In this document: piece after piece, positions 4,736 to 33,515 of the stretch | How the letters are laid out: each line of letters begins with the position of its first letter | How positions within the stretch are numbered: position 1 is the first letter of the stretch | DNA from: Thermoanaerobaculia bacterium | Lineage (GTDB): Bacteria; Acidobacteriota; Thermoanaerobaculia; Multivoradales; J023 | Assembly: GCA_030431255.1 (NCBI GenBank) | Contig: JAUIJL010000009.1 | Span: forward strand, 62,001 to 126,000 | Length of the DNA stretch: 64,000 nucleotides | Direction of reading: 5' to 3' | Translations under genes and position numbers: made by a program | The notes under the pieces: model-generated | Database searches by the model: none | What the model was told of the DNA's origin: nothing | What the model saw: the letters and a program-made list of their open reading frames with translations, nothing else

Positions 4736-5584
4736 TTACCAGGCCGAGGTATCACCGGACTCGAAGCCGTCGGAGAAGATGATTCCGAGACCTTGGTTGA
4801 CGGAATAGGCTTTGGTGAACGTTTCGGAGCCGCCCGGTGGGATCACGGCATGCCATTGGAAGGCCCCTTCCCAATCTCCGGTGGTGAAGGGAAATCCGCT
4901 GCCGTCGAAGTTGGTGACGAGACCGTCTTGCATCAGCTCCCGAATGCTCACCGCCAAGTCGGCGGTGTCCGAGGCTTGCACCCCGATGGCGCCGGGGCCT
5001 TGAAACTCGCCGAAGGTGGTGCTGTCGGAGACCCTTACCAGCACCGGATCCTCGAGCAACACGGCTTGGTCGTCGGTCAGGGTGTCGGCCAGGTCGAAAT
5101 CCAAGTAGCCGAAGATATCGATGTCGAGAGGCTCGGAGCTGATGTTGGTGATGGTCAGCTTATTCACGATATGCGAGCTCGTGCCGCTGCTTCCGTCGTA
5201 TACGGTAGCCGACAACCGTGCGTCGAAGAGGTTTCTCGAAGCCACGTTGCTCCAAGTCGCCTCGCCGACGGGACCGGTGTAGCTCTCCGTTTGAGGAGCC
5301 GTGAACGCGGTTTCGTCGGAGTCTCCCGCGACCCGGAAGTACCAGGCATCCTCGAAGACGTTGTCCAGCCCCCCGTCGATGAAATAATTGCAATTATTAA
5401 GGTTATCCGCCAGATAGTGAATTCGTTCGAAAGTTGCCGTGCCGCTGGTGATCGTGCCCTGAGACCATGCGGGCGCGACTCCGAAGAGCATCCCAACCGT
5501 CAACAGGACGCCGGAGATCATCCGTGTCCGGCCGAAGCGAGAGGGATCCGAAGTCGAGAAAAATCGATTCGTTTCGAAATCCAT
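4736..5584 (-). CDS. Exported protein with C-terminal FESGD tail
   Basis: 282 residues from the ATG at 5584, which has GGAGG 8 nt upstream. A longer frame to 5728 has no such signal. A basic N-region (S-R-F-G-R-T-R) precedes the hydrophobic stretch MISGVLLTVGMLFGVAPAWS, giving a signal peptide of about 42 residues. The mature part is beta-rich and aromatic, includes a single cysteine (N-N-C-N-Y-F) and describes no known enzyme. It ends G-I-I-F-S-D-G-F-E-S-G-D-T-S-A-W, a tail shared with the proteins at 27935, 29906 and 32406. The next gene downstream (4247-4726) follows by 9 nt. Confidence 0.8.
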   Translation of the reverse strand: MDFETNRFFSTSDPSRFGRTRMISGVLLTVGMLFGVAPAWSQGTITSGTATFERIHYLADNLNNCNYFIDGGLDNVFEDAWYFRVAGDSDETAFTAPQTESYTGPVGEATWSNVASRNLFDARLSATVYDGSSGTSSHIVNKLTITNISSEPLDIDIFGYLDFDLADTLTDDQAVLLEDPVLVRVSDSTTFGEFQGPGAIGVQASDTADLAVSIRELMQDGLVTNFDGSGFPFTTGDWEGAFQWHAVIPPGGSETFTKAYSVNQGLGIIFSDGFESGDTSAW

Positions 5585-5761
5585 GTTGATGTCCTCCACT
5601 GAATACAAGTGTTGAGCGCCACACCGTGACGACGTCACGGGTCCTCTGATTGCTAAGGCGCTTTGGGACCAGGAATCCGCCCAAATCCATCCAATCGACT
5701 TTCGAGACGCAGCTTCGGATCTCGACAAGTCTTCAATCCGTCCGGCTTCTTCTCCAAAGAC

Positions 5762-5793
5762 AAGGGGGACGACGCCTAGGCACCGTCCCCCTT
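5762..5793 (-). terminator. Hairpin terminator after the 5838-9395 gene
   Basis: A perfect 10-bp stem (AAGGGGGACG at 5762-5771 with CGTCCCCCTT at 5784-5793) and a 12-nt loop, lying 45 nt past the stop of the minus-strand gene. The following minus-strand bases are only moderately T-rich (TTGTCTTTGG). Confidence 0.6.
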
Positions 5794-5837
5794 TGCTTCA
5801 GCGGCCACACGCCGAAGACATCAAACGATTCACCCGA

Positions 5838-8800
5838 TCAAGGCACATCCGGATGGGTGCGGGCGTCGAGATTTTCAAGCGGAACACCCGCCGGTGGCGG
5901 TGTCGGGAAGTAAGTCTGTGGAATGACACCGTTGAGCAGCGGGAAAGGCTGCACCGGCTGACGACGGGGATCGTCGTGCATTTCGACTCCCGAATCGAAG
6001 GTCAGTGCGTCTAGCGGACGCATGGTTGCCGACGGATTCTCCGCCGTGTGGCAGCTCAGGCAGAACGCGTTGCTAACCGAGTCCGGACGCGGGTCGTTCC
6101 AAACGAGCGGAATACCCTGCAAGTGGATCAAGGACCGCATGCATTCGGTGGCCATGATGCCGTGGGTGGTGCCGAGGCACACCGGCGACGACGAGGTGTC
6201 GGGACGCTCGCAGGCGAATTCGGAGTACGATGTCGAAAGCGGCGAGATGTCGCTGATGAAACGGCCGTGGGAGCCGTAAGCATCGTAGGCATCCGCCAAA
6301 TCTTCCAGCTCTTGGCTCGCGCTGCTGTCGACACCGACCAGGGTGCCGCCCGCGTGGTTACACACTTCCTCCACTGAGGGTTTGCCGCCGATGACTTTGA
6401 AATCGTCGACCCAGCCTTTGAAGCCGCCGGCCTGGGCACTCAACATCATGCGCCCGGGCTCTATCCTGAATGCGCTCAATGCGGTGATGTCCTCCTCGCG
6501 GTGGATGTTGTAACCATCTAGGAAAACCGTCACATCGAAGTCGGAGCCATTGGGTTCGGAGAGCACGGAAATGGTGCTCCACTTGTCCGTGGCAAGCTTC
6601 AAGAGCGGATCGGTCAGGATGACGTCGTGGCCGCCGTATCCTGTGCTCGTCGGCCATTTCAGGCGCAGGCGTTGCTGTGTGGGCTCCTGAACCAAATTAA
6701 GAAAGCTGCCGTCGGGCCAGGTGATCAGCCGCTGTACCGTGGTGGTGGACCGCGGATTGACCGACAGGGTGACGAACCACGGCGCCGACGCCATGGCCGC
6801 CGAATCGGGTTGCGACGGAATCACGTACTCCAGCCGATCGTCGACACCGTCGAGCCACAGACCTTTGGCCTGGAATCCACCGGCCGCCAAGGGCTCGACT
6901 CGACCACCGCCGAGCAGCCGGCCGTAGGTCGGCACGTTCCACGTCACCGCCGCTGCCAAGGGGTTGGGCGAATGGACGTCGCCGGCGAAATCCGCCACTT
7001 CCTGGGAGACCGCGGCAGCGCTGTTGGCGATATGCGGGGCCTTCGTATAACCGCGACCTTGGTAGGTCGCGGTGCCAGTTCCTTGCCGAAGGTAATCCCA
7101 TTCGAAGCCGTCGTTGTAACGGTTGTGGAGGGACATCGGCGCAAAGAAGTCACGCACCAGGTTCAGCGTTGCCCCCATCTCCGACACGATGAGAGCCGCC
7201 GGATGGTTGACATCGTCGAAGGCGATTTCATCCGTATCCTTCGAGCTCGACAAGTGCCACACGACTTCCCGCGGCGTCTCGGTTAGCAGGTTCGGCAGGA
7301 AATTGAATTGATTCTCAGGTGACGAAAGCGTCGTTTTTTCCGACGCGCCAATCTCCACACCGCTGGAAAGGTCGTCGTAAAGGTCGACCAAACGATGGTA
7401 AATCACGTTGTCGTGAATGCTGAAGTCGAGGTTGTTGTTGCGCGTGTCTAGAGTGAAGAATTTTCCTTGGGTCCACAGGCCACCGGCGGTAAGACCGATT
7501 TTGCGGCCACCGTTGAAAGGATCACTTGAAATCGTGGTGATGTTCGGCTCGGTCACCGACACCCCGAGGGGATGACCGAGGATCGGATAACGCGGCACGA
7601 CCTGATCGAGCTCGTTGATGTAGTAAAAGCTCTGATCGCCGGCGATATAGAACAGCATGTCGCCGTCCCGATCGATCCAAGGATAGGCTCCAGGCGTCAC
7701 GTTGAGGGGATCGCCAAGTGCCGTGCTGATTACCTTATTCTCGGTGTCCCGCATGGGGAACTTGGCAATTCCATAGTCCGCCATGTCGGGGTCGGCATAC
7801 ATCTCAGTGATGTGTTTGAATTCCGTCCAGCCATCGGGGTCGCAAGCGTCTAAAGTATCCGGGATTACTGAATACATGATCAAACCATTCACTTGCGCGA
7901 TCAACAGCCGGCCGTCGCCCGAAATCACGGGTTCGAGGATGTTGTTGCCTAGAATTTCGATACGCTCCGGATCGCCCAAACGGATCGGATCCGCCACCGT
8001 GGGCAGAGCCGTCGGATTGGAGCTCTTGGGATTCGACACCACTAAGCGAACTGGCGTCACCCAAAGCTCATCGTCGAAGCTGGCCGGGCCCGTGAAACGG
8101 GCAACCAGCGAAATGTCGTAGCAATCTTGAGCTCCGTTTGGATCGAGCACACCATCCGTGCATGCCTGGGGATTGCTCGATCGCCCCTTATGGCTCTGCG
8201 AGCGATTGTGATGGGACGAGGATCCGGCGAGCGGAGGGTCGCAAACGGCGATCGACGGAGCGAAGCTTAGATGGGTGGCCTCCACATCGCGAAGATTCTC
8301 GACAGTCTCGTATAGATTCTGCGTCGTAAAGTCCATGCTCGAAAAGTATTCGGGCAGGCCGGTATCCGTCTGGGCTTGACCGAGCGGCTCAGAGAAAAAC
8401 TCCGGGACTTGGACTTGGAAGTGTACGCCCAACCCATTGGCCCCGATGGCAATCCGACCGTCGTAGGTTTGACTCAGTGAGCTGGTGAGCCGGTTGTGGG
8501 GTGATGGAAAAACTTGCTGAATGCCCCCTCCACCGTTGAGCTCGTACTCCTCCCGCAGCACATCGATCGGCGACGCCGGAGGAAGGGGCATCGTGGAGTT
8601 GGCCGTCCAGGTTTCGTGCTCCGGCAAGCAGCTGAAGTCGACCGCCGTGCTCAAGCTGAACGCGGGTGGGTAGCCACCGACGAGCCCGTAGTCGGCGCAA
8701 TGCTCGGCGATCGCCTGCTGACAGGCGTCATCGATCTCCTCGGACCCGTGACTCACTGGACAGGCGGCGGAAACCTCCGATGGCACGGCTTGATCCTCTG

Positions 8801-9395
8801 CCACCCCCGGCTCGATACAAGCGTAGGTCAACGTGTTGCCCACCACGCTTATTGGACCGAATCCCACGTCACTGGTGCATTGTCGATTGATGCCGATATC
8901 GCAGTTGTGATTCGGCGGCGAGTAGAAGCTGGTGGTGGTGTTCAGGCACCAGGTATTGAGTCGTATTTCGTTGGCGGTCGGGCCGGGCGTGTCGCCCGGG
9001 TTGACTCGCGTATAGGTTTCGACCTGAACGGCATCGCCGGTCAGGCAAGTGACATCCATGGTGTCGGTCGTGCCTTCGGTGCCGAAACCGAAACCGCTGA
9101 CGTAACCCCGGCCGACGCAGAAATTGTGGACCGCGTTGTTGCACTCCAGGCTCGGTGTCGCCGACGAGGCACCACAGGTCGGTGGTCCGCCCGAGGGATA
9201 GAGGTCGGCCTTGAGGATTCGGTAACGCGCGGCCATGGCGTCCGAGTGCACGGTATCGCTATCGTTGGGGCCGAACGGTTGGTGTTGGGCATGGCCGGCA
9301 TGGGGCAAGACGAACGAGGAAGCGAGCACGGCGACGATCGCCATGCCTTGCGCGGTCGCGCGGAAGGGTATTCTCAATTCATTAAGTGAAGGCAT
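5838..9395 (-). CDS. Large exported protein with LamG-like domain and one CxxCH haem site
   Basis: 1185 residues, ATG at 9395 with AAGGAG 6 nt upstream. Residues 1-36 are a signal peptide (cleavage near GHA-Q). The first about 270 residues are Cys-rich and carry paired motifs such as C-N-N-A-V-H-N-F-C and C-Q-Q-A-I-A-E-H-C. The middle is a beta-propeller-like region with W-I-D-R-D-G-D-M-L. A concanavalin/LamG-like domain follows at roughly 840-1050 (A-K-G-L-W-L-D-G-V-D-D-R-L-E-Y and W-S-T-I-S-V-L). Near the C-terminus C1112-L-S-C1115-H1116 is a c-type haem motif beside a C-M-R-S-L-I segment. It is transcribed leftward and ends at its own terminator. I know no characterised homologue. Possible roles are an outer-surface redox or attachment protein. 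Confidence 0.8.
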   Translation of the reverse strand: MPSLNELRIPFRATAQGMAIVAVLASSFVLPHAGHAQHQPFGPNDSDTVHSDAMAARYRILKADLYPSGGPPTCGASSATPSLECNNAVHNFCVGRGYVSGFGFGTEGTTDTMDVTCLTGDAVQVETYTRVNPGDTPGPTANEIRLNTWCLNTTTSFYSPPNHNCDIGINRQCTSDVGFGPISVVGNTLTYACIEPGVAEDQAVPSEVSAACPVSHGSEEIDDACQQAIAEHCADYGLVGGYPPAFSLSTAVDFSCLPEHETWTANSTMPLPPASPIDVLREEYELNGGGGIQQVFPSPHNRLTSSLSQTYDGRIAIGANGLGVHFQVQVPEFFSEPLGQAQTDTGLPEYFSSMDFTTQNLYETVENLRDVEATHLSFAPSIAVCDPPLAGSSSHHNRSQSHKGRSSNPQACTDGVLDPNGAQDCYDISLVARFTGPASFDDELWVTPVRLVVSNPKSSNPTALPTVADPIRLGDPERIEILGNNILEPVISGDGRLLIAQVNGLIMYSVIPDTLDACDPDGWTEFKHITEMYADPDMADYGIAKFPMRDTENKVISTALGDPLNVTPGAYPWIDRDGDMLFYIAGDQSFYYINELDQVVPRYPILGHPLGVSVTEPNITTISSDPFNGGRKIGLTAGGLWTQGKFFTLDTRNNNLDFSIHDNVIYHRLVDLYDDLSSGVEIGASEKTTLSSPENQFNFLPNLLTETPREVVWHLSSSKDTDEIAFDDVNHPAALIVSEMGATLNLVRDFFAPMSLHNRYNDGFEWDYLRQGTGTATYQGRGYTKAPHIANSAAAVSQEVADFAGDVHSPNPLAAAVTWNVPTYGRLLGGGRVEPLAAGGFQAKGLWLDGVDDRLEYVIPSQPDSAAMASAPWFVTLSVNPRSTTTVQRLITWPDGSFLNLVQEPTQQRLRLKWPTSTGYGGHDVILTDPLLKLATDKWSTISVLSEPNGSDFDVTVFLDGYNIHREEDITALSAFRIEPGRMMLSAQAGGFKGWVDDFKVIGGKPSVEEVCNHAGGTLVGVDSSASQELEDLADAYDAYGSHGRFISDISPLSTSYSEFACERPDTSSSPVCLGTTHGIMATECMRSLIHLQGIPLVWNDPRPDSVSNAFCLSCHTAENPSATMRPLDALTFDSGVEMHDDPRRQPVQPFPLLNGVIPQTYFPTPPPAGVPLENLDARTHPDVP

Positions 9396-27934: not shown

Positions 27935-29290
27935 CTACCAAGAGCTGGTGTCGCCGGACTCGAAGCCGTCGGCGAAAATTTGCATCGGATCGGCCACCCC
28001 TTCGATGCTGAAGCAGCGGTAAGACGTGCCCGTTCCCCGCGGCCCGGTACCGTCGGCATTGGCCACGTCACGCCACACCACCGCCACCTGGGGACGCCCC
28101 TGGCTATCCGGCTCGGGCAGGAAGCGAACAGCAGGCCGATCCTGCACATTCTGGGTGAAGGTATTGACGGTCGTCTCCCCGCCGATGGGGTTGCCCAGAG
28201 GATCGTAGACCTGCATATAGACATCGAGCTTGTCGACTTGGGTGTCGGCGGCATCACCGGCCCACACCACCGCGGAGAGATTTTCGGGCCCGTAGGCGAC
28301 CGCCGGCTGCCCTTGGGCATTTGCCGTCGTCGTGTTGACGACGAAATCATTGCCGATGGGATTGCCCATGGCGTCGAATCGGCGAGCGCGGACGTTGACC
28401 GGATCTCCTGGAATGTCGACGAAATTCTCCCAAACCACCGTAAAGCTGCCGTTGGTGGGATCGGCGGCGACCTGGGGCAAGTTGTTGGGCATACCGGCCG
28501 TGGTGCTGATATCAAAGGACGGCAACACCGTCGGGGTGCCGCCGGAGAGATCGACGATATTGCCTCGGATGGTGACGAAATCCGTCGACGGAATGATCAG
28601 CCGGTTGCCGGCCGGATCGAGCAAGGCGACGTCGGCGTTCAGCCCGGGGCCCAACTCGATGGCGCCGCCGTTCGGCACGCCGGTCGATCCGTCCACTCGC
28701 TGGGCCCGCACGGTAGGGGTCGCGCCGGGAAGATCCGAATAAACGACCGTCACCTCACCACTTTGATTGACCGCCACCCCGGTGTCGGCAAAGACCGGGT
28801 CCGGGAAGGTCGCGATATTGTCGATCGGAAAAGTCGAGAGATGGGTGCCCGATTCATCGAACGTCGCGACCCTGACCATTAAGGTCTGGGAAGCGGTTCC
28901 GTCGACGGCGAAGGCGAAGGCGACGAAATCACCGTCGTCCGTGGGGTTGCGGCTGCGGGCGCTGCTCGGCGTGGTCTTCGAGCTGGAGCTGACGGTCACG
29001 GTTTCCGAGCCGGCGTCCACGGGATTGGGCGTGCTGTGGAATTGATCGGTGAAAAATTGGAATTCCGGTGACGGCGGCGGGTTTCCTCCGGCAAACAACA
29101 GCCCCCCCATCAAAACCTCACCGGAATTTCCCCGAATGGATTCAAAGCGAGGCCCCACCACTTCGTCAGCGGCAACCGGGGTGCCCCCGATTTGCCCCTC
29201 GGCGGTGGGCACAACCGCCGGACCGGCGAAAAGAGTCGTGGGCGTGAGCATCAAGCACAGCGAGATCGAAGCGAGCACGAATGGACGCAT
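27935..29290 (-). CDS. Exported beta-propeller-like protein with FESGD tail
   Basis: 451 residues from ATG 29290, which has AAGGAG 8 nt upstream. The frame extends to 29341 without a ribosome-binding site. A signal peptide (FVLASISLCLMLTPTTLFA) precedes a mature part with repeated motifs of the form V-x-V-V-W/Y-x-D/N-x and R-A-R-R-F-D, G-N-P-I-G, typical of secreted repeat proteins with 50-60-residue blades. It ends M-Q-I-F-A-D-G-F-E-S-G-D-T-S-S-W, the same tail as at 4736, 29906 and 32406. No catalytic motif was seen. Confidence 0.82.
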   Translation of the reverse strand: MRPFVLASISLCLMLTPTTLFAGPAVVPTAEGQIGGTPVAADEVVGPRFESIRGNSGEVLMGGLLFAGGNPPPSPEFQFFTDQFHSTPNPVDAGSETVTVSSSSKTTPSSARSRNPTDDGDFVAFAFAVDGTASQTLMVRVATFDESGTHLSTFPIDNIATFPDPVFADTGVAVNQSGEVTVVYSDLPGATPTVRAQRVDGSTGVPNGGAIELGPGLNADVALLDPAGNRLIIPSTDFVTIRGNIVDLSGGTPTVLPSFDISTTAGMPNNLPQVAADPTNGSFTVVWENFVDIPGDPVNVRARRFDAMGNPIGNDFVVNTTTANAQGQPAVAYGPENLSAVVWAGDAADTQVDKLDVYMQVYDPLGNPIGGETTVNTFTQNVQDRPAVRFLPEPDSQGRPQVAVVWRDVANADGTGPRGTGTSYRCFSIEGVADPMQIFADGFESGDTSSW

Positions 29291-29505
29291 GATGGACTCC
29301 TTGGAGATTGGCAGAAGTTGTTTCCTGCCCGCTCTACGCAAGGAATCAAGAATTCAGATGAATCTATACGCTCACACCGCCAAGTCGAGGATCTCGGCAC
29401 GGTTGTCGGAAGCGTCGAAGCAAAGTCTCCTGGGGTTGGGTTCTCAACAATTGTAGTCGGCCCAGGCGTTAGATAGGCTTCGTCCGAGCCGACCCCGAGG
29501 AACCC

Positions 29506-29905: not shown

Positions 29906-30784
29906 ATGCGCTCGACGATGGGAATGACGACTTGGATATTGGCGTTCTTTTGTGGGCTCAGCTTCGCGCCCGCGGTTTTTGCGGGAGTTGGCACCTGTGT
30001 CCCGTCGGCGACGACTCTGTGTTTGGGCGGCAATCGATATCAGGTGGATGTGGATTGGCAATCGACGACGTCTTCCGGGGAGGGGCAGGTCTTCTCCTTC
30101 GCCACTACGAATTCCGGATTCTTCACCCTCGAGGATCCGGATACGGTGGAGGTCTTGGTGAGCGTGTTGGACGGTTGCACGATCAATGACAACAGCTGGG
30201 TTTTCCTGGCGGATCTCTCCTCCAATCAGATGACCCTCACGGCCGCCGACACCAGCGGTGGGGCCTCGCAACAATACGAGTTCAATCTCGGTGCGAGTCG
30301 CAATCCCCTGGCGGATACCAGCGCCTTGGCTTGCCCCACCTTCATCTCCCCGGTACCGCAGGCTCCCTTGTTGAGAAGGGGCTCCGATCCCTACCTCGAG
30401 ATGGTGTCCGGCCGTTTTCGTGTGTCGGTGGAATGGGATTCCCAGACCGCCGGCACGGGTCCCGCCACTCCGGTCCATCTCACGGATTCTTCCGGGGCGT
30501 TTTGGTATTTCAACGACCGCAACCTCGACATGTTGCTCAAGATCGAGCCCCATCCCAGCAACGGCTTCTATCGCCTCGTGGCCGGCTCCCCCAGCACGGT
30601 CGGCTTCACGATCACCGTCCAGGACACCTGCCTGGGCACGACCCAGGCCTACTCTTTGATGGAAGGCGGGCCCTTAACCACCGTCATCGATGAGCAAATG
30701 CACGCCATCGACTGTATCGATCACGTCTTTGCCAACGGCTTCGAGTCCGGAGATACCTCCCTGTGGTCGAGCACGGCTCCTTGA
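29906..30784 (+). CDS. Exported protein with two copies of a Cys-x-Leu-Cys-Leu-Gly domain and an FESGD-like tail
   Basis: 292 residues. ATG 29906 has AAAGGA 8 nt upstream and opens a signal peptide (WILAFFCGLSFAPAVFA). Copy one (about 30-145) begins C-V-P-S-A-T-T-L-C-L-G-G and has the pattern S-G-F-F-T-L-x-D-P-D-x-V-E-V-L-V-x-V-L-D. Copy two (about 160-275) begins S-G-R-F-R-V-S-V-E-W and has A-F-W-Y-F-N-D-R-N-L-D-M-L-L-K-I. The same domain closes the subtilisin at 18512. It ends V-F-A-N-G-F-E-S-G-D-T-S-L-W-S plus five residues, so its FESGD tail is slightly internal. The next gene starts 8 nt downstream. Confidence 0.82.
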   Translation: MRSTMGMTTWILAFFCGLSFAPAVFAGVGTCVPSATTLCLGGNRYQVDVDWQSTTSSGEGQVFSFATTNSGFFTLEDPDTVEVLVSVLDGCTINDNSWVFLADLSSNQMTLTAADTSGGASQQYEFNLGASRNPLADTSALACPTFISPVPQAPLLRRGSDPYLEMVSGRFRVSVEWDSQTAGTGPATPVHLTDSSGAFWYFNDRNLDMLLKIEPHPSNGFYRLVAGSPSTVGFTITVQDTCLGTTQAYSLMEGGPLTTVIDEQMHAIDCIDHVFANGFESGDTSLWSSTAP

Positions 30785-30792
30785 AGACACCT

Positions 30793-32223
30793 ATGACCTT
30801 GACCGCCAGGGCCTTGGGTCTGGCCGCCGCCTTGCTGCTTTATGCCGGCTGTGGTCGCTCACCGGAGCCCGAATCGGCGCCCCCGCCTGCCCCAATTCCC
30901 GAGCCGACGGTCTACTACGAAGCGGCGATGAAAGCGGCGGCCTGGATCGATGCCCAAGCCAGGGAGACGGAGCATGGGCTGGCTTGGGGAGAGAAGAAAG
31001 AGCTTCCCGAGCTACCTCCGGAAATCTCGGCGGAATTCCTACCTTTCGGCCTGACGCTCTACAGCGGCACGGCGGGGACCGTGCGTTTTTGGCTCGACGC
31101 CCACCGCCACACCCAGGGCCCGGGACATCTGGACCGGGCGGTCCGGGGAGCCGACGAGCTTTTGGCACACCTGCCGTCGGCGGCTCCCGAGGACCCGAAT
31201 CAAATCGGTTTCTACGGCCTATACGACGGTTGGGCCGGCATCCTCTGGACCCTGGAGCAGGTCCATCAAGCGTCCGGCGAGCCCAGGTTCCGAGAAGGTG
31301 CCAGGCGTTTGCTCGATCAAATCCACGCCTGCGCCCAAGAAGCCGGCGACGGGGTCCACTGGGGCGAGACCAACGAGCTTTTCTACGGCAATGCCGGATT
31401 CGGTCTCGTGCTGTTGTGGGCCGCCGACACCTTCGAGCACCCCGAGTCGGAAGCGCTGGCGACGCGCGCCGGACGATGGCTGCTGACCAGCTCCGAGCCC
31501 CGACCCGGCGGTCGCACGTGGCCTTGGGGTCCTCAAAATCCCGATCTGGTGATGCCCAACTTCTCCCACGGCACCGCCGGCGTGGTTTATTTTCTGGCAG
31601 CCCTCTATCGACGGACCGGCGAGCAGGCTTTCCTCGATGCGGCTCTGGAAGGCGCGGGTCACCTGACCGAGGTCGCCGAAACCGCCGACGGCAAATATTG
31701 CTTGGTCTTTCACCACGAAAACAAAGGGGACCGCAAAGGCGGCGAGGACCGCTACTACCTGGGCTTCTGTCACGGTCCCGTAGGCACCAGCCGCATGTTC
31801 GAGCAGCTGTATCTGGCGACCCAGGAAGCGCAATGGCGGCAGTGGGTCGACCAGGGCAGCCGAGCCATTGCCGAGTCGGGCATTCCCGAGCAGGAGACGC
31901 CGGGCTTCTGGAACAACGTCAGCCAATGCTGCGGCTCGGCCGGGGTCATGGATCACTTCGTCCACCAATATCGACGCACCGGTGATCGCGAGCATCTGGC
32001 CTTCGCTCAGCGCATGGCCGACGACCTGCTGAGCCGGGCCGAGTCGGAGGGCGAGGGTCTGAAATGGGTGCAGGCCGAGCATCGGGTGAAACCCGAGCTG
32101 TTGGAGGCGCAGATCAGCTACATGCAAGGAGCGGCCGGCATCGCGGCTGCCTTGCTCCACCTCGACGCGGCCCTGCGCGACCTCGACGTGGAGCCTCTGC
32201 GTTTGGTGGACGATCCTTGGTAG
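30793..32223 (+). CDS. Exported LanC-like (lanthionine synthetase C-like) lipoprotein
   Basis: 476 residues from ATG 30793, the start that gives a signal peptide. A GTG at 30763 would overlap the previous gene. An imperfect lipobox (L-L-Y-A-G-C) near residue 19 predicts a periplasmic lipoprotein. The rest is an alpha/alpha toroid with the Gly-rich inner-helix motifs of the LanC family: F-S-H-G-T-A-G, F-C326-H-G-P-V-G, Q-C379-C380-G-S-A-G and Y-M-Q-G-A-A-G. LanC proteins use Cys, Cys and His to bind zinc and activate cysteine thiols for lanthionine rings. Here the His of the second Cys-His pair is replaced by C380, while the first Cys is followed by His. No LanB, LanM or precursor peptide gene lies nearby. 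The function is unknown. Confidence 0.85.
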   Translation: MTLTARALGLAAALLLYAGCGRSPEPESAPPPAPIPEPTVYYEAAMKAAAWIDAQARETEHGLAWGEKKELPELPPEISAEFLPFGLTLYSGTAGTVRFWLDAHRHTQGPGHLDRAVRGADELLAHLPSAAPEDPNQIGFYGLYDGWAGILWTLEQVHQASGEPRFREGARRLLDQIHACAQEAGDGVHWGETNELFYGNAGFGLVLLWAADTFEHPESEALATRAGRWLLTSSEPRPGGRTWPWGPQNPDLVMPNFSHGTAGVVYFLAALYRRTGEQAFLDAALEGAGHLTEVAETADGKYCLVFHHENKGDRKGGEDRYYLGFCHGPVGTSRMFEQLYLATQEAQWRQWVDQGSRAIAESGIPEQETPGFWNNVSQCCGSAGVMDHFVHQYRRTGDREHLAFAQRMADDLLSRAESEGEGLKWVQAEHRVKPELLEAQISYMQGAAGIAAALLHLDAALRDLDVEPLRLVDDPW

Positions 32224-32405
32224 GACCCTGAGCGATACCGTCGAGTCGGCAGGATTCCCAAACAGGTGTTGTCGGATCCTGACTCGAGGGTCGGTCCGAG
32301 AGCGCATTCCAGGACGATTCGGCCGCAATTCTTGGCGGCTCCGCCGTGGCATTGATGTTGCTCTGTTGAGGGGCATCGTCAATTCCACAGAAAGTGAGCC
32401 CCCTC

Positions 32406-33515
32406 ATGATTCGCTTCCCGAACACTCGATGCCCTTCGACGAGCCGACAGCCTGCTCGTCTTCCATATGCCTGGGTCGTAGGCGCCGCCCTGCTGGCGGT
32501 CCAACCCGTCGTCGCCGAGCCGTTTGCCTACATCACCAACTTCTTGGACGGCACCGTGTCCATCGTCGATCTCGGGCCGTCGCCGGCAGCGGTGGTGGAC
32601 ACGGTCACCGTCGGCGCCAATCCCTACGGTGTAGCCGTGGACTCCGATCGACAGATCATCTACGTGGCCAATAGCGACGACAACACGGTATCGGTGATCG
32701 ATGTCGGCCAGATCCCCGCACAGGTCATCCACACCGTGTCCGTGGGATCGGAGCCCAACGGCCTCGCGGTGACCCCGGACGGAGGTCTCGTGCTGGTAGC
32801 CAACTACGCCGGCAACTCGGTTTCGGTAATCGACGCGAGCTTGACGGTGCCCGCGGTTATCGACACGGTGGCGGTCGGCGAAGGTCCGGAATATTTGGTC
32901 ATCCATGCCGACGGCACCCGGGCGTACGTGGGCAACACCGAGGACAACACGGGCACCAGCACCGTGACCGCCATGGGCATTGCCTCCACCTCGGTGACGG
33001 TGCTCGACACCTTCGACGTCGGTCCAGAGGCCCACGGCGTCGCGCTGGCACCCGACGGTGATCTCTGGGTGGTCACCGCCGACGACGGCAAGCTGAGCTC
33101 TTTCGAGACCGAAGCCGACACCCACGACAGCCTGAAAAGCGTCGACACGGGAGCCCGGCTCTACGGCCTTACCCTCTCGCCGACGGGAGATCGCGCCTTT
33201 GCCGGCAATCCCGAGGGCAGCGCGATTCTAGTGGTCGACATCACCGCCGAATCGCCGACGATCATCGACACCATCGACGTGGGCCAAGCGGTGTTCGGCT
33301 TGGACACCAGCGCCGATGGCGGGCTGCTCTACGCCCTCAGCATCGGTGACCAGCTGCTTCGGACCTACGACGTCTCCCAAGTGCCCGCGGTCCTGCTTCC
33401 CACCACCGAGGTCGGTCAAGGTCCCCTGGCCCTGGGAGACTTCGTCTCTCGACAAAGCCCGCTGATCTTCGCCGACGGCTTCGAATCCGGAGACCTCACG
33501 GCCTGGTCGAAGTAG
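32406..33515 (+). CDS. Exported YVTN-type beta-propeller protein with FESGD tail
   Basis: 369 residues from ATG 32406. A GTG at 32394 is possible. The signal peptide ends AVQPVVA. Blades repeat about every 42 residues with Y-V-A-N-x-x-D-N-T-V-S-V-I-D and G-x-x-P-x-G-L-A-V-x-P-D-G, the YVTN (surface-layer) propeller signature. It ends L-I-F-A-D-G-F-E-S-G-D-L-T-A-W-S-K. Such proteins are usually surface-bound binding platforms. Convergent with the metallophosphoesterase gene at 33680. Confidence 0.88.
   Translation: MIRFPNTRCPSTSRQPARLPYAWVVGAALLAVQPVVAEPFAYITNFLDGTVSIVDLGPSPAAVVDTVTVGANPYGVAVDSDRQIIYVANSDDNTVSVIDVGQIPAQVIHTVSVGSEPNGLAVTPDGGLVLVANYAGNSVSVIDASLTVPAVIDTVAVGEGPEYLVIHADGTRAYVGNTEDNTGTSTVTAMGIASTSVTVLDTFDVGPEAHGVALAPDGDLWVVTADDGKLSSFETEADTHDSLKSVDTGARLYGLTLSPTGDRAFAGNPEGSAILVVDITAESPTIIDTIDVGQAVFGLDTSADGGLLYALSIGDQLLRTYDVSQVPAVLLPTTEVGQGPLALGDFVSRQSPLIFADGFESGDLTAWSK

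Follow-up and report, generated by a model that had tools for sequence, protein, structure and literature searches.

What does a LanC-like protein do when its gene encodes an export signal and stands without a LanB or LanM gene beside it? The LanC enzymes known so far either cyclize peptides in the cytoplasm together with a partner dehydratase or, as LANCL proteins, work inside eukaryotic cells. We address this question for one gene in a window of 64,000 nucleotides (the whole stretch of DNA that was analyzed), which sits on contig C27 of a host genome of 10.2 Mb in 54 contigs. The open reading frame at 30793-32223 on the + strand, with an ATG start and 476 residues, is confirmed as a real gene, lying far beyond chance because its protein matches Pfam LANC_like with 105 bits and three cysteines are kept in 92 of 93 rows of the family alignment; an Rfam search gave no match. 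What is unusual here is location together with solitude: an exported, partnerless LanC-like clade. The best overall explanation, to which we assign a probability of about 0.42, is a distinct, mostly exported, stand-alone LanC clade performing zinc-thiol addition chemistry. The features referred to below are as follows:

29906..30784, + strand: upstream secreted protein with a GFESGD C-terminal motif, 8 nt from the LanC-like gene and on the same strand
30793..32223, + strand: coding sequence of the predicted exported stand-alone LanC-like protein, 476 aa (LANC_like 105.4 bits; AF2 model pLDDT 89.8)
30793..30852, + strand: signal peptide; Cys20 is the probable site of lipid attachment (hydrophobic stretch by the export rule; lipobox YAGC non-canonical at -3)
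31567..31569, + strand: His259, counterpart of LANCL1 His219 (proton donor) by profile alignment; His in 72/72 rows of alignment A2 and in 36/36 LanM/LanC
31768..31773, + strand: Cys326-His327, counterparts of LANCL1 Cys276 (zinc) and His277 by profile alignment and column counts
31927..31932, + strand: Cys379-Cys380 (CCG), counterparts of LANCL1 Cys322 and His323 (zinc) by family and profile alignments
32065..32127, + strand: family signature loop W425..Q445 (consensus WxxAEHRxxPxxxxAQTGYMQ), at which LanM/LanC cyclase domains have mainly gaps

LanC membership and the predicted zinc site

The LanC-like identity proposed in the earlier note is borne out by both the profile match and the fold ranking. 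Pfam LANC_like covers residues 86-458, scoring 105.4 bits against a cut-off of 23.2, and is matched by 72/72 alignment members with the best E-value among all families, and the NCBIfam models for LanM, LanL and LanKC are matched in their cyclase part only, far below their cut-offs, again by all 72 members. An AF2 model built from the 72-row alignment reached a mean pLDDT of 89.8 and a pTM of 0.89 (the single-sequence model was poor, with a pLDDT of 53.9). When it was compared with known structures using VIA-align, LanC-type chains came out on top, from CuvL (Z 37.9, rmsd 3.0, 354 residues aligned) through GCR2 (35.0), LANCL2 (34.5), LANCL1 (33.3), MadC (33.2) and NisC (32.7) down to PneKC (24.1), and the top ranks of Foldseek agree. 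Other toroids, raised in the earlier note as possible better matches, fit worse: GH47 scores 22.6, the Thioredox_DsbH chain 7tkv_B, which we take to be YyaL-like, 20.7 (rmsd 3.8, 301 aligned) and GH76 20.4. By profile and predicted structure, the window protein is thus a LanC-family alpha/alpha toroid. The YyaL/thioredoxin-domain toroid was rejected on its position under the LanC chains, and GH127 as the true family was ruled out on score: it matches residues 379-414 only, at 21.2 bits against a cut-off of 24.9, and LANC_like does better across the members. Weak matches at E up to 0.01 nevertheless recur in the family, to GH127 in 58/72 members, GH76 in 35/72 and GH88 in 30/72, with weak pectate lyase and C5-epimerase matches in many members as well; the GH-type matches occur in 0/8 LanC domains of the window's own genome.

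The active site appears complete. Positions C326, C379 and C380 (codons 31768-31770, 31927-31929 and 31930-31932) are all Cys in 92/93 rows of the family alignment, which includes four duplicate rows, and the one exception, L014, ends at a contig edge; in alignment A2, C326, C379, C380, H259 and H327 are each kept in 72/72. Profile alignment to LANCL1 pairs C326 with C276, C379 with C322, C380 with H323, H259 with H219 and H327 with H277, so that, as judged from sequence, the zinc triad (Cys, Cys, His/Cys) and the catalytic His lie on the right columns. At the level of this alignment, the possibility raised in the earlier note that the three Cys are far apart finds no support. As described in PMC9934072, zinc binds the thiolate in LANCL1, His219 protonates the enolate and His277 stabilizes it, the last position being mostly Tyr in bacterial LanCs and Lys, Asn or His in LanMs. 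The LANCL1 GSH contact His274 aligns with Gly or Ser in the exported family. Where the earlier note saw a changed zinc motif, C379-C380 does stand at the expected Cys-His site, and the change is not new: a CCG variant is already known in ProcM-type LanMs, according to PMC10027976. We therefore discarded the motif as the novelty of this locus, because it is a published variant and is found in 11/36 LanM/LanC proteins from related genomes; CuvL carries it too.

The closest known systems share some features with the protein and differ in others. The cyclase domain of CuvL (curvocidin synthetase; PDB 8cav/8car), the best fold match, is also the best profile match and has the same QCCG motif; CuvL is a trifunctional synthetase, whereas the window protein is a lone, probably exported cyclase-like domain. 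LANCL proteins are intracellular, with a Cys-Cys-His zinc site, and the eukaryotic-type enzymes add GSH to Dha/Dhb. Compared with LANCL1, the window protein has an export signal and lacks the His274 GSH contact. Human LANCL1 and LANCL2 resemble it in being stand-alone, in their fold (Z about 33-34.5) and in their His219/His277 pair, as given in PMC9934072. ProcM-type CCG LanMs share Cys, not His, as third zinc ligand (PMC10027976), and differ in that the window protein has no dehydratase domain, has an export signal and has no recognized precursor peptides. NisC and other class I LanCs share the fold (Z 32.7) and the catalytic His (His212 according to PMC9934072); the window protein differs from them in having His327 for the usual Tyr, no LanB partner and an export signal. 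Stand-alone "LanC family" proteins from Streptomyces, Georgenia, Nonomuraea and Mesobacillus records are 31-37% identical and keep the CCG, but 0/7 have an export signal, and those of Mesobacillus and Nonomuraea lack the catalytic His.

Export signals across the clade

The lipobox of the window protein, Y17-A18-G19-C20, has Tyr at -3, off the usual pattern (PROSITE PS51257), and our export rule classed the protein as SEC, not LIPO. Of the lipoprotein signal claimed earlier, export is the well-supported part and the lipobox the part that departs from the pattern; lipidation at Cys20 is likely, if not assured. Under this rule a protein counts as exported when a twin-Arg motif is combined with a moderately hydrophobic segment, or when a segment of strong hydrophobicity lies close to a possible start. 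Since the choice of start favors finding a signal, shuffled and internal controls were run, and 22% of shuffled N-termini and 15/77 internal stretches were positive. Of the 80 loci, 77 have a readable N-terminus, and 70 of these are positive for export, 35 as Tat, 29 as Sec and 6 as strict lipoprotein. The remaining 3 were excluded: two are cut by contig ends, and L117, counted as unexported on the tree, has an N-terminus too short for a signal. By the same rule, 0/7 plasmid-record relatives have an export signal.

On the tree, where export states of rows added later were set by eye, the three states (Sec/lipoprotein, Tat and none) require a minimum of 9 changes, of which just 3 separate exported from unexported proteins; the route has therefore changed and the location has been kept. 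The Tat route carries folded proteins, which would fit a site that receives its metal in the cytoplasm. Many Gemmatimonadota members with Tat-type signals start with Met-Cys (L085, L087, L089, L090, L095, L106, L107, L115, L119 and L121, among others), with more Cys or His ahead of the twin Arg, as in MCRLCDHVLTRRSFL; it would be odd for the n-region in front of the signal to bind metal. In the open-license literature searched, no paper describing a LanC-like enzyme with an export signal came up; subscription journals may hold one.

Distribution, clade residues and genomic solitude

Five strong relatives were found in 98 genomes searched. A search of contigs with the single protein as query returned no relative, only 13 pattern stretches; with the alignment as query it yielded 317 confirmed relatives, the best 80 of which were studied. 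By record title, these best 80 of 317 fall into nine phyla (Acidobacteriota, Gemmatimonadota, Planctomycetota, Aminicenantes, Armatimonadota, Bacteroidota, Ignavibacteriota, Binatota and Pseudomonadota), labels that come from metagenome-assembled genomes and may be wrong in individual cases. Members above 400 bits occur in 13/396 genomes of the window's phylum and, in the phylum to which the Gemmatimonadota record L106 belongs, in 27/200 genomes. In a quick maximum-likelihood tree the family forms one group apart from the LanM/LanC rows (SH-aLRT 97, with long branches flagged).

Residues conserved in at least 90% of the 72 rows were compared with 36 LanM/LanC sequences, which identified P255, N256, H307, Y322, R334, W373, E429, R431, Q440 and the loop at about 425-445 as specific to the clade. 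P255, N256, W373, E429, R431 and Q440 are invariant in the family and rare or absent in the 36 LanM/LanC sequences: the N256 column is Gly in 36/36, and E429, R431 and Q440 (72/72 in the family) are found in at most 2/36. Such residues suggest a distinct substrate pocket. The window protein itself is off-consensus at E195, M335, I441, S442, A451 and V472. A sister group (L039, L041 and L154) keeps the three Cys and has lost the catalytic His, and L155 and L156 have lost both the zinc Cys and the catalytic His; all five remain intact open frames, L154-L156 with Tat-type N-termini. Some relatives must therefore act differently. The Tat-signalled paralogues L155 (G313) and L156 (G348) are each the sole LANC_like match of their own genome. 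Two further proteins are worth recording. L017, in G078, is another, distant LanC-like protein that looks exported; its signal is Sec-like and its motif the normal CHG. In L078 (about 4947-9329), a LanC-like domain follows, as a fusion, a secreted protein with DUF5107 and TPR repeats.

We searched for LanM as PF13575 and for LanB as PF04738. The window's own genome has 12 LANC_like matches, most of them inside long LanM-type frames, with five PF13575 and three PF04738 matches, all off contig C27; by these counts it belongs to a lanthipeptide-rich acidobacterium. Neither family has a match on contig C27, so the earlier statement that no LanB or LanM gene adjoins holds, and no precursor peptide was recognized near the gene in a reading of the small-ORF list. 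The class I LanC setting, with LanB and a precursor alongside, is thus not found here (no PF04738 on the contig and no conserved neighbor), and the N-terminal dehydratase or kinase-lyase domain of LanM, LanL and LanKC is absent from the 476-aa protein. The same solitude is seen more widely. In 38 genomes chosen from family holders (19 of them the genomes of 19/80 loci, two, G313 and G348, holding a zinc-less paralogue instead, and one, G465, an unexported member), the gene is the sole LANC_like gene in 30; PF13575 occurs in 5/38, PF04738 in 8/38, and 28/38 have neither.

A survey of 53 non-redundant loci, in 50 of which the gene caller recovered the target, yielded 28 close same-strand neighbors, a mixed bag. 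No widely recurring family was found among the neighbors scanned, all but the one beside L086 (19 directly, 4 as longer frames and 4 via a same-cluster relative). In one Gemmatimonadota group the gene lies between a PD40-amidohydrolase on the upstream side and a PLP decarboxylase on the downstream side; these and an M19 dipeptidase were rejected as conserved operon partners, belonging almost wholly to one syntenic Gemmatimonadota group.

The secreted protein encoded upstream is possibly co-transcribed with the LanC-like gene in the window. It had been put forward as a Cys-rich partner. "Cys-rich" overstates its 7 Cys in 292 residues, one of them within the signal peptide, and its role as a conserved partner was rejected: it belongs to a large repeat family with 48 paralogous matches in its own genome and members in 54/59 genomes (its own included), and the family stands beside 0/85 LanC-like loci (81 distinct), with flanks of differing length and, in part, on short contigs. 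Its closest relative, in G005, lies on a different contig from the LanC-like gene of that genome. A FADGFESGDTSxW-like C-terminal motif recurs on secreted proteins, at 29906-30784, 27935-29341 and 32394-33515 in the window and at 122 places genome-wide, and it looks like a sorting or anchoring tag; the reversed GFESGD pattern, by comparison with these 122, occurs once in the genome.

Proposed role and competing readings

The protein is likely a zinc-thiolate enzyme that works by itself, outside the cytoplasm and apart from lanthipeptide biosynthesis, and whose reaction and substrate we infer. C326, C379 and C380 would hold zinc, with the protein folded around it outside the cytoplasmic membrane; the zinc would bind and activate a thiol or thiolate, and His259 and His327 would assist its addition to an alpha,beta-unsaturated acceptor, both as in LANCL1. 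The acceptor would be a dehydrated Ser or Thr residue, or the reaction would run in reverse. As a one-gene enzyme, it would have as its target a protein, peptide or small molecule outside the cytoplasm, not a lanthipeptide precursor encoded nearby. We consider the exported, LanC-fold and zinc-site part of this proposal very probable and the thia-Michael part, a chemistry drawn from homology alone, tentative. The loss of His274, the losses of the catalytic His and, in L155 and L156, of the zinc Cys in sister proteins, and the weak GH127, GH76 and GH88 matches count against it.

The weak GH127, GH76, GH88, pectate lyase and C5-epimerase matches, seen in 0/8 LanC domains of the own genome, the clade-specific W190, W373, W425, E429, R431 and Q440 and the fusion of L078 to DUF5107 and TPR all speak for an exported zinc enzyme with other chemistry on the LanC scaffold: a hydrolase, lyase or epimerase whose substrates are glycans or peptides and in which the three-Cys zinc would activate water or substrate and a ring of conserved Trp would bind the substrate. 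PMC10352776 suspects such roles for Bacteroidales LanC-likes near CAZymes, but all examined LanC catalytic columns are kept in our family, unlike those Bacteroidales proteins. Moreover, 72/72 members match LANC_like, which gives a better E-value than every other family, the best LanC chains lie more than 10 Z units above glycoside hydrolases, and the GH127 match of the window protein is short and below cut-off. We judge this reading unlikely.

The intact sister frames that have lost the catalytic His (L039, L041 and L154), or the zinc Cys as well (L155 and L156), would agree with a non-catalytic envelope zinc-binding scaffold, chaperone or thiol-buffering protein; His259 and His327 are kept in 72/72 of the main clade, though, and a mere zinc holder would not need them, which makes this role quite improbable. 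A lanthipeptide cyclase acting on an exported peptide or on the neighboring secreted protein would account for the gene 8 nt upstream on the same strand and for the lanthipeptide enzymes elsewhere in the genome. That the upstream family, with its 48 matches in the genome, stands beside 0/85 loci (81 distinct), that its G005 relative and the LanC-like gene are on separate contigs and that dehydratases are missing from 28/38 family-bearing genomes render it highly improbable.

Returning to zinc-thiol addition, its boldest form, extracytoplasmic thia-Michael chemistry on proteins or peptides by a one-gene zinc enzyme present in many phyla and sent to the envelope via the Sec, lipoprotein or Tat route, is possible if somewhat unlikely; it could, for example, cap or cross-link dehydroalanine in envelope proteins, as a bacterial extracytoplasmic counterpart of LANCL. 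A branch of the LanC family that is conserved, exported, partnerless and equipped with an intact active site points either to thioether chemistry in the envelope or to a new reaction on the LanC scaffold. A "lanthionine synthetase" annotation on such genes is no sign of lanthipeptide production, and either reading would be directly testable on the purified protein.
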